Virus record (IMG/VR): IMGVR_UViG_3300049212_000048 | Coordinates: 1-27,629 of that record | Strand: one strand, 5' to 3' | Length of the DNA: 27,629 bases | From: a virus | In this document: positions 25,062 to 26,983 of the stretch, one piece after another | Layout: each line of letters begins with the position of its first letter | How positions within the stretch are numbered: the stretch's first letter is position 1 | The notes under the pieces: generated by a model | The model's database searches: none | Told to the model about the DNA's origin: nothing | What the model saw: only the letters and a program-made list of their open reading frames with translations | Position numbers and translations under genes: made by a program

Positions 25062-26432
25062 ATGGGGTTGACCGTGGGCGGACTGTTCAGCGGCGTCGGC
25101 GGACTGGAGCTCGGCTTGGAATGGGCGGGCATGCAGCCGCGCTGGCAGGTCGAGATCGAGGAGTACGCGTTATCTATTCTCAGTCGGAGGTGGCCTGATG
25201 TCAGAAGACTTGGAGACATTACGAAAGTCGATTGGCGAGACGTTGAGCGAGTTGATGTCGTGTGTGGAGGATTTCCGTGCCAGGATATTAGCACGGCTGG
25301 AAAGCGCGCCGGCCTCCTCTCGGGCGGACGGTCCGGCCTGTGGCGGGAGTTCGCCCGCTGCATCGACACGGTCCGCCCGCGCTACGCTGTCATCGAGAAC
25401 GTCGCCGGCCTCCTCTCCGGATTCGACGACATGCTCACCTGTTCCGCCTGCGGCGCCGTCGGCCGAGACTTCATCGCCGACGACGGAGACATCCTCTCCG
25501 TCGTCGACGCCGACCACGGCAACTCCAGGGAGTACCTGGAGGCCGTCGCCGTGGCCGAACGCAACGGAGCGGAGCGGCCGCCGCGGCGGTCCATCCAGCG
25601 CGCCAGGATCGGCGCCGTTTGCGTTTCTTGCGGCGGGCGCGTGGGTGATTCCTCAAGCGAGCCTGTGCGGCAGAGCTGGATGGGACGAGTACTCGGAGAC
25701 CTGGCCGCTCTCGGGTACGATGCGGAGTGGGAGTGCCTACCGGCGGCGGCCTTTGGCGCCCCGCACCTCCGCTACCGGACCTTCATTGTGGCCTACGCCG
25801 AACGCGTACGAGGAGTGCGGAGAGCGCTACTCGGAGGAGACGATGAAGCAGCACATGGCGGAAGGGGGGCAGGTTCATCTTGGACAGATGGTCAAGCACA
25901 GCCTGAAGCCGGAGACCTTCCCGACGCCGATGGCGAGCGGGGCGGGGACGAGCCCGGAGACGCTGGAAATGGTCCTGGCGGGCGAGTCGCAGATGACGCT
26001 GGACCGGTACGTGAAGCTGTGGCCGACGCCGTCCGTGCTGGACAAGGACTTCGCCGAAGGAAAAGAGCCGGCCGAGCGGCGGATGGCGAAGGGCAAGCAA
26101 ATCATGCTGGCGCACGCGGTGAACCTGCCGAGGCTGTGGCCGATACCGAAGGCGAGCGAAGCAAATCTAGGAATCCGAGGTCCGAATTGTCACGGCGGAC
26201 CAGCGTTGACGGAGGCGATCCTCCTGGAGGCGGAAGGCAAGTCCTCCGACGAGCGCCTGTTGAGCGATGGTCCTTCTGGGCAGCTGAACCCGACGTGGGT
26301 CGAGTGGCTGATGGGATTCCCGCCAGGGTGGACCGACTGCGGTGCCTCGGTAACGCCGTCGTCCCACAGGTGGCCCATTGGATCGGACGGTGCATCGTCG
26401 ACCACGCCGGAGACGTTCGCGACGCCGACTGA
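25062..26432 (+). CDS. Cytosine-5 DNA methyltransferase (Dcm-type) with zinc-ribbon insertion
   Basis: 456 residues from ATG 25062. Motif I is GGLFSGVGGLELGLEWAG (7-23); motif IV GGFPCQDIS holds catalytic Cys73; motif VI is E112-N-V; motif VIII is R237-Y-R239 in APHLRYRTFIVAY; motif X is GNAVVPQ (430-436). It transfers methyl from S-adenosylmethionine to cytosine C5. Between VI and VIII two CxxC pairs (127/130, 187/190) suggest a zinc ribbon. Residues 245-410, the usual recognition-domain place, are Gly/Ala/Arg/Asp-rich and low in complexity, with repeated A-D-A/A-D-T words. Over this part the frame has weak third-position GC (43 of 92 codons at 25891-26166), unlike the overlapping frame. Specificity cannot be told; activity is likely but not certain. 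Confidence 0.8.
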   Translation: MGLTVGGLFSGVGGLELGLEWAGMQPRWQVEIEEYALSILSRRWPDVRRLGDITKVDWRDVERVDVVCGGFPCQDISTAGKRAGLLSGGRSGLWREFARCIDTVRPRYAVIENVAGLLSGFDDMLTCSACGAVGRDFIADDGDILSVVDADHGNSREYLEAVAVAERNGAERPPRRSIQRARIGAVCVSCGGRVGDSSSEPVRQSWMGRVLGDLAALGYDAEWECLPAAAFGAPHLRYRTFIVAYAERVRGVRRALLGGDDEAAHGGRGAGSSWTDGQAQPEAGDLPDADGERGGDEPGDAGNGPGGRVADDAGPVREAVADAVRAGQGLRRRKRAGRAADGEGQANHAGARGEPAEAVADTEGERSKSRNPRSELSRRTSVDGGDPPGGGRQVLRRAPVERWSFWAAEPDVGRVADGIPARVDRLRCLGNAVVPQVAHWIGRCIVDHAGDVRDAD

Positions 26433-26736
26433 CGCGAAGGCGAGCGAGGAGGACGGCTTCAGCCCGCTCGGGCGGCAAGTCGTGCGCGGCAACCCGAAGC
26501 GGAAGGCGTGGCCGACTCCTCGCGCGGGTGACGCGGGCGGACAAAGCCTCAATGCGACGATAGTGCGGATCAAGGGCGGCGGCGACGTGATGCTGAGCAG
26601 CCTGGTGAAATGGGGTGAGCGTGGGCAACTTGACGGCATCGCGAAGGAGTCGGTTGATGGCGAAGATCCAGGGGGACTCTTTGCGGCCGGAGCGGCGGCT
26701 GAGGAGGGCGCTCCGGATGCTGGGCGTGCCGTTTAG
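25198..26736 (+). CDS. Overlapping WPTP-repeat protein, read in a second frame through the methyltransferase gene
   Basis: 512 codons from ATG 25198, which has GGAGGT at 25186-25191 at ideal distance. The start MSEDLETLRKSIGETLSELM and CVEDFRARI looks natural; a Ser/Ala/Pro/Thr-rich part follows (about 40-150), then WDEYSETWPLSGTMRSGSAY. Six (W/F)-x-x-P units stand at residues 198, 241, 275, 314, 407 and 438, and LNPTWVEWLMGFPPGWTDC at 363-381. I know E-D-F-R-A-R ... W-P-T-P ... L-N-P-x-W-V-E-W-L-M-G proteins from phage genomes, and similar segments at the ends of some phage methylases. G/C fills the third position in 83 of 92 codons at 25891-26166. The frame continues 304 bases past the methylase stop and overlaps vsr by 122. 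Function unknown; a partner or recognition subunit of the methylase is possible. Confidence 0.6.
   Translation: MSEDLETLRKSIGETLSELMSCVEDFRARILARLESAPASSRADGPACGGSSPAASTRSARATLSSRTSPASSPDSTTCSPVPPAAPSAETSSPTTETSSPSSTPTTATPGSTWRPSPWPNATERSGRRGGPSSAPGSAPFAFLAAGAWVIPQASLCGRAGWDEYSETWPLSGTMRSGSAYRRRPLAPRTSATGPSLWPTPNAYEECGERYSEETMKQHMAEGGQVHLGQMVKHSLKPETFPTPMASGAGTSPETLEMVLAGESQMTLDRYVKLWPTPSVLDKDFAEGKEPAERRMAKGKQIMLAHAVNLPRLWPIPKASEANLGIRGPNCHGGPALTEAILLEAEGKSSDERLLSDGPSGQLNPTWVEWLMGFPPGWTDCGASVTPSSHRWPIGSDGASSTTPETFATPTDAKASEEDGFSPLGRQVVRGNPKRKAWPTPRAGDAGGQSLNATIVRIKGGGDVMLSSLVKWGERGQLDGIAKESVDGEDPGGLFAAGAAAEEGAPDAGRAV
25789..26520 (+). repeat. Interspersed DNA word TGGCCGACGCCG read in two frames
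   Basis: Copies or near copies start at 25789, 25918, 26020, 26137, 26416 and 26509. In the methylase frame the word gives Val-Ala-Asp-Ala-like peptides, in the other Trp-Pro-Thr-Pro. Spacing is irregular (about 90-280 bases), so it is neither a tandem array nor a CRISPR. Confidence 0.75.
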
Positions 26737-26983
26737 GGCCAACGCGAAGGACCTGCCCGGCACGCCGGACGCGGTGCTCAGGCGGCATCCTGTCGCGATC
26801 TTCGTGGACGGCTGCTTCTGGCACGGCTGCCCGCAGCACTACCGCGAGCCGAAGACGAGGACGGAGTTCTGGGCCGTCAAGATCGCAGCCAACCGGCGAC
26901 GGGACCGGCGCGCCGATCGTCGCCTGCGGCGGCTCGGCTACGCGGTCGTCAGGATCTGGGAGCACGATGTCACCGGAAAGTAG
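26615..26983 (+). CDS. vsr: Vsr-type very-short-patch repair endonuclease
   Basis: 122 residues from GTG 26615; ATG 26657 would cut off the conserved RSRLMAKIQG that aligns with the R-S-x-x-M-x-x-I start of Vsr proteins, so I keep the longer form. LPGTPDAVL carries the catalytic Asp (Asp52), FVDGCFWHGCP the second metal and His site (His70 with Cys67 and Cys72 near the structural zinc), and RTEFWAVKIAANRRRDRRAD plus LGYAVVRIWEHDV complete the family. Length is usual. Vsr nicks next to the T of a T:G mismatch that arises when 5-methylcytosine is deaminated, so it normally accompanies a Dcm-type methylase, as here. It starts inside the preceding frame and overlaps the next gene. Confidence 0.88.
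   Translation: MSVGNLTASRRSRLMAKIQGDSLRPERRLRRALRMLGVPFRANAKDLPGTPDAVLRRHPVAIFVDGCFWHGCPQHYREPKTRTEFWAVKIAANRRRDRRADRRLRRLGYAVVRIWEHDVTGK

Follow-up and report, generated by a model that had tools for sequence, protein, structure and literature searches.

Two overlapping frames at the methylase locus

The window, that is, the whole stretch of DNA analysed here, is an entire IMG/VR virus record of 27,629 bases. Its plus strand carries a C5-cytosine methyltransferase gene (alpha, frame 0) and, beginning inside that gene and read in the +1 frame, a second long frame with its own ATG (beta; Table 1). An earlier note, made from the sequence alone, had described this 512-codon frame, its strong Shine–Dalgarno sequence and its extension 304 bases beyond the methylase stop, and all of these are confirmed. 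GGFPCQDIS indeed reads as EDFRARI in the second frame, and motif X lies under GWTDCGASVTPSS, as the same note had reported. Its statement that two P-T-P-like units follow the methylase stop holds for one of them: AWPTPRAGD lies wholly beyond the stop, whereas FATPTDAK (26416–26439) straddles it.

Table 1. Features of the overlapping pair in the window.
Feature	Positions	Strand	Sequence or detail	Support
Alpha, C5-cytosine methyltransferase catalytic chain	25062..26432	+	456 codons, frame 0	Pfam DNA_methylase 2.3e-37, phrog_363 2.5e-71
Alpha motif I	25083..25103	+	LFSGVGG	
Alpha motif IV with catalytic Cys	25266..25292	+	GGFPCQDIS	
Alpha motif VIII region	25752..25784	+	FGAPHLRYRTF	
Alpha motif X	26346..26369	+	LGNAVVPQ	
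Shine–Dalgarno sequence of beta	25186..25191	+	GGAGGT, 6 nt 5′ of ATG 25198	same zone SD-enriched across loci
Beta, proposed motif-IX/target-recognition subunit	25198..26736	+	512-codon ATG frame, +1 of alpha	phrog_1008, shuffle test, 78/78 alpha-selected loci
Beta N-module core	25687..25731	+	EYSETWPLSGTMRSG, opposite alpha LGDLAALGYDAEW	
Beta WPTP-repeat region	25786..26160	+	units at 25786, 25918, 26017, 26134	
Beta motif IX	26278..26340	+	GQLNPTWVEWLMGFPPGWTDC	
Beta tail past alpha stop	26433..26736	+	one further WPTP unit (AWPTPRAGD, 26506–26532)	

Motifs I–VIII and X are present in alpha. Motif IX is absent from frame 0, and alpha is therefore not a canonical single-chain enzyme of the Dcm type, with motifs I–X and the recognition domain in one chain. 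The best stretch of PF00145 on alpha covers profile positions 4–116, whereas the matches of canonical enzymes run unbroken from about 1 to 322. The motif X segment is connected through a long linker of weak conservation. Between motifs VI and VIII (approximately 25437–25660), alpha has an additional, zinc-ribbon-like stretch with two CxxC pairs (CSACG ... CVSCGG); in the beta frame this DNA encodes low-complexity sequence rich in Ser, Thr and Pro. The methylase is followed by an ORF for a vsr-type short-patch repair endonuclease (26615–26983, Pfam Vsr 3.4e-21), the start of which overlaps the final ~120 bases of beta; such a neighbour fits an m5C-making enzyme next door.

Motif IX is found in beta, where it reads LNPTWVEWLMGFP. 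The earlier note had proposed a search of the second translation against phage proteins, and beta matches the phage protein family phrog_1008 at E=4e-24 (beta residues 154–381 to profile positions 88–281 of 329) as well as numerous phage loci. Pfam and NCBIfam gave no meaningful match to beta, PDB sequence searches returned nothing usable and no solved relative, and AlphaFold models beta alone poorly (pLDDT 64). The label of phrog_1008, DNA methyltransferase, misleads when applied to beta alone, as the family mixes non-catalytic +1 betas with in-frame C-terminal parts. Over the same stretch the +2 frame contains 16 stops, and the G+C content of the overlap peaks at the third codon position of beta (0.76), the corresponding value for the methylase frame being 0.64.

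Distribution of the pair

Searching with the second frame (tblastn) retrieved phages of Paenibacillus, Escherichia, Salmonella, Erwinia and others. For the Paenibacillus phages (GC 0.44) the records list each of the two frames as a gene, the inner gene of Shelly with the remark “g55 internal gene”. Erwinia phage Gungnir39 and Escherichia phage SHAK7693 also have an open, family-like second frame, but it is unannotated. A beta profile applied to 99 loci placed the second frame at exactly +1 in every one of them. Because most of these loci had been found via beta, we repeated the search with the methylase N-terminus only (motif I to GGFPCQDIS). Beta was at +1 in 78 of the 80 loci selected in this way, the remaining two being contigs that end too early, and the loci with beta span GC contents from 0.30 to 0.70. 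Finally, all 80 beta loci in bacterial and archaeal genomes are the +1 frame of a methylase; none is a standalone beta, by which a standalone beta family was ruled out. Altogether the double coding was found in hundreds of diverse phages and prophages, with one protein annotated in most records.

Most betas overlap almost all of the alpha gene. Of 235 loci, 25 have a beta that extends beyond the alpha stop, in most cases by a few bases; longer extensions are few. The tail of the window's beta past 26432 is without close relatives, a scan with it yielding mostly the motif IX core; the nearest parallel that we saw is a locus (L158) whose beta runs ~690 bases past the alpha stop with more WPTP units. 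A search of E. coli found prophage copies, and the M.EcoHK31I system was not among its matches. In an E. coli ST361 prophage (L430, 2363–3532) the annotation breaks the methylase into two incomplete pseudogenes and leaves the beta frame empty. At four loci (L007, L017, L076 and L230) one ORF fuses the N-terminal part of alpha to the beta frame, which we took as indels.

Selection on the second frame

As a null model, we permuted synonymous codons within alpha, keeping its protein and codon usage exactly, for 78 loci comprising the window and 77 alpha-selected loci. In 100 shuffles of the window the second frame acquired 4.5 stops on average and never remained open over the 387 codons, and the beta profile, which scores 222 bits on the real sequence, reached a mean of 38 and a maximum of 79 bits. 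Across the 78 loci the real beta scored a median of 125 bits versus a median shuffled mean of 43, and 77 loci outscored every one of their shuffles. At the exception (L125) some shuffle reached the real score; the tested stretch is short there because the alpha frame is broken. As the middle codon base of beta is the wobble base of alpha, conservation of alpha alone cannot explain this result.

Substitution rates were compared by alpha codon position in 13 independent pairs, a check akin to the per-frame dN/dS comparison that the earlier note had proposed. Upstream of beta, the difference rates at alpha positions 1, 2 and 3 are 0.056, 0.021 and 0.235, the pattern of an ordinary gene; in the overlap up to motif VIII they are 0.080, 0.039 and 0.143, the pattern of doubly constrained DNA. 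Between motifs VIII and X they become 0.245, 0.146 and 0.167, which is the pattern of a gene in the beta frame, with some pairs poorly aligned in this part, raising all three values. The DNA between VIII and X therefore serves mainly beta, with alpha as a linker kept open.

Start sites were analysed at 281 loci. A Shine–Dalgarno match of at least 5 bases precedes 34–38% of the +1 ATGs located 30–80 nt upstream of the GGFPC codons, compared with a background of 4.7% for positions overall and with 1% for ATGs that lie deeper in the gene. The beta start of the window, at −68 from the GGFPC codons and with GGAGGT, falls inside this enriched zone. The enrichment favours independent initiation rather than frameshifting.

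Ordinary full-length Dcm genes in ten genomes that also bear the clade served as controls. They span GC contents of 0.35–0.65, have 6–29 stops in the +1 frame and show no beta signal. High-GC Dcm fragments in the control genomes (L450, L456 and L461) have 0–2 stops and also show no beta signal, and our criterion is therefore the profile and not openness alone. An intact methylase of the present kind with a stop-filled second frame, which the earlier note had named as the case that would speak against it, was not found, stop-filled frames occurring only in ordinary Dcm genes outside the clade. Within its overlap with alpha, beta is thus a conserved, selected frame: the protein family, the conserved +1 position, the shuffle null, the substitution rates, the start sites and the negative controls all support as a selected gene what the earlier note had described as a frame that looks translated.

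Split and fused architectures

The distribution of motifs over the two frames varies. In mycobacteriophages TelAviv (gp6/gp5) and Goose (gp80/gp79), alpha stops after motif VIII and a +1 beta with its own ATG contains the recognition region and motifs IX and X, while prophi91-1 gp16 and PFR1 gp45 have all motifs in one frame. According to a scan with an IX–X profile, to which four phage loci were added, 37 loci are single-chain and 40 are split with the second part at +1; the in-frame versions are confined to an actinophage-like branch. Located by pattern at about 330 loci, motif IX occurs in one frame or in neither and never in both, with no match in either frame at about 50 loci, and the same one-or-neither rule applies to motif X.

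The phrog_1008 profile recognises the window beta, the betas of the split loci and the C-terminal portion of prophi91-1 gp16, encoded in frame (2.6e-55), and these are therefore homologous. Alignment of beta with the IX–X profile (hhalign) pairs LNPtWVEWLMGFP with its counterpart (91.5%, E=8.8e-7). In the model of a single-chain relative (L279) the I–VIII and IX–X parts are confident and the LPTP part is of low confidence; the best matches of the predicted fold are M.HhaI and M.HaeIII. The +1 N-module is still under selection beside complete single-chain enzymes (37 of 37), where it either still takes part in the enzyme or has another role.

Several loci deviate from these layouts. Four (L309, L314, L323 and L324) are mixed, with the WPTP region in +1 and motifs IX–X in the alpha frame. 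In Mycobacterium phage Llama (gp74/gp75; L262, 885–1644), alpha is broken after motif VI and resumes in +1, and the beta-like frame shifts too, as if one indel had moved both frames. The annotated GTG start of Propionibacterium phage PFR1 gp45 (L263, 1066–1120) excludes motif I although an open frame with motif I reaches upstream, and the gene start is probably misannotated.

Comparison with known systems

The small subunit of M.EcoHK31I, a two-chain C5-methyltransferase, is read from another frame within the large one. As summarised in PMC3404938, this enzyme (YGGCCR; Lee, Kam & Shaw, 1995) belongs to an E. coli restriction–modification system; its large chain has motifs I–VIII and X and a predicted recognition domain, its small chain motif IX alone. 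The window shares both aspects of this layout, alpha having I–VIII and X without IX and beta having IX. It may differ in the placing of target recognition, predicted for the large chain of M.EcoHK31I, as in the window the conserved variable VIII–IX region is in beta and the substitution pattern between VIII and X follows beta. No restriction gene was seen beside the window methylase. The two-chain layout of the window thus has a precedent by motif arrangement.

M.AquI (CYCGRG) is likewise a two-polypeptide C5-methyltransferase with a catalytic first chain, and has motifs IX and X in the second (PMC3404938). The split forms of actinophages, for example TelAviv gp6/gp5, share this arrangement, IX and X being together in the second chain in TelAviv gp5 and Goose gp79. 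The window departs from it by retaining motif X in alpha and by a much more extensive overlap. Cutting the enzyme after motif VIII, ahead of the recognition domain, and attaching the C-terminal helix to the large domain is reported to give pieces close to the two native domains (PMC5944983).

Among phage proteins, prophi91-1 gp16 and PFR1 gp45 share with the window the catalytic part, the LPTP-repeat/motif IX module (phrog_1008) and the +1 N-module, and differ in having every motif in one frame. The Paenibacillus larvae phage pairs Shelly gp55/gp56 and Jacopo gp56/gp57 are the same overlapping alpha and beta deposited as two genes, with a GC content of 0.44 and a shorter beta without the tail; their records propose no function. 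Out-of-frame HNH insertions of the ShiLan type (PMC11855218) also hide a second protein in another frame of a phage methylase gene but are mobile homing-endonuclease insertions unrelated to motif IX or the beta family.

A proposed two-chain methyltransferase

Taken together, the locus probably encodes one C5-cytosine methyltransferase made as two polypeptides from the same DNA in two frames, with beta as the motif-IX/target-recognition subunit; expression and activity we infer from the comparisons above. Alpha would provide the catalytic large domain with the AdoMet site, the catalytic cysteine, motifs I–VIII and the motif X segment. Beta would be started in the +1 frame from its own Shine–Dalgarno sequence inside alpha and would supply motif IX, the N-terminal module and the variable WPTP-repeat region at the usual site of target-recognition domains. 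The two chains, which may depend on each other, would be expected to associate into an active phage methylase with its specificity set by beta, and the enzyme is probably an orphan that marks or protects phage DNA. Most likely, alpha corresponds to an M.HhaI-type large domain plus the motif X segment and beta to the small domain with motif IX. The WPTP/LPTP region is a putative folded recognition domain, the LPTP part being of low confidence in the model of the single-chain relative. That part, the poor model of beta alone, the roughly 50 loci at which the pattern located motif IX in neither frame and the predicted recognition domain on the large chain of M.EcoHK31I all speak against the proposal.

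Of the other explanations, an untranslated second frame that is open and family-like only through GC content and a conserved alpha protein is largely refuted. High local GC (66–67%) does favour open frames, but beta is conserved and open even at GC 0.30–0.40, it is destroyed by shuffles that preserve the alpha protein and codon usage, ordinary Dcm genes of similar GC show nothing comparable and the substitution pattern speaks against this explanation. The synonymous shuffles and the low-GC loci thus bear out the earlier note, which had called GC-driven openness a poor explanation, and we rejected it. We also consider it highly improbable that programmed +1 ribosomal frameshifting, and not initiation at its own start, yields beta as a fusion with alpha. 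Such a fusion would agree with a frame that is always exactly +1 and with betas that mostly overlap nearly the whole alpha gene; however, ATGs preceded by Shine–Dalgarno sequences cluster at the proposed beta start, TelAviv gp5 and Goose gp79 have in-frame stops just upstream of their starts, and motif X would be lost wherever it lies in alpha.

It is unlikely, to a lesser degree, that beta is a translated protein that is not a methylase subunit and instead acts independently or in regulation, for example as a modulator of alpha or of host restriction, having arisen by overprinting on the methylase gene. The absence of a Pfam match and of a solved relative would be compatible with this, as would the conservation of the N-module beside complete single-chain methylases, which a simple missing half would not need and which does not fit such a role. 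Against it, the motif IX that alpha lacks sits in beta and is never duplicated, the recognition/IX/X region that single-chain enzymes carry in frame is a homologue of beta, and no beta stands alone among the 80 genome loci. Beyond the two-chain enzyme proposed for the window, we put forward more tentatively, at somewhat less than even chances, that dual coding is obligate in a large clade of phage C5-methyltransferases, the recognition region and motifs IX and X moving between frames and the +1 N-module opposite motifs VI–VIII always being kept, even beside a complete single-chain enzyme.

Implications

Long same-strand overlapping genes are thought to be rare and are suppressed by gene finders. 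Here, an overlap of several hundred codons is fixed in phages that differ widely in host and base composition, and therefore one protein is absent from most annotations while the other is misread as a complete enzyme. In the open-licence full-text literature we found no direct description of an overlapping methylase pair in phages, and the near-universality of the pair in a large phage clade, its moving domain boundaries and the beta N-module retained even next to a complete alpha seem not to have been described there. If beta sets the specificity, codon-optimised cloning of “the methylase gene” would abolish the enzyme unnoticed, and any specificity predicted from alpha alone would be incorrect. 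If dual coding is obligate, the N-module would have a function of its own, for example in methylase assembly or control. With overlapping, split and fused forms and domains that change frame, the family offers a natural series in which the evolution of dual coding is directly testable.
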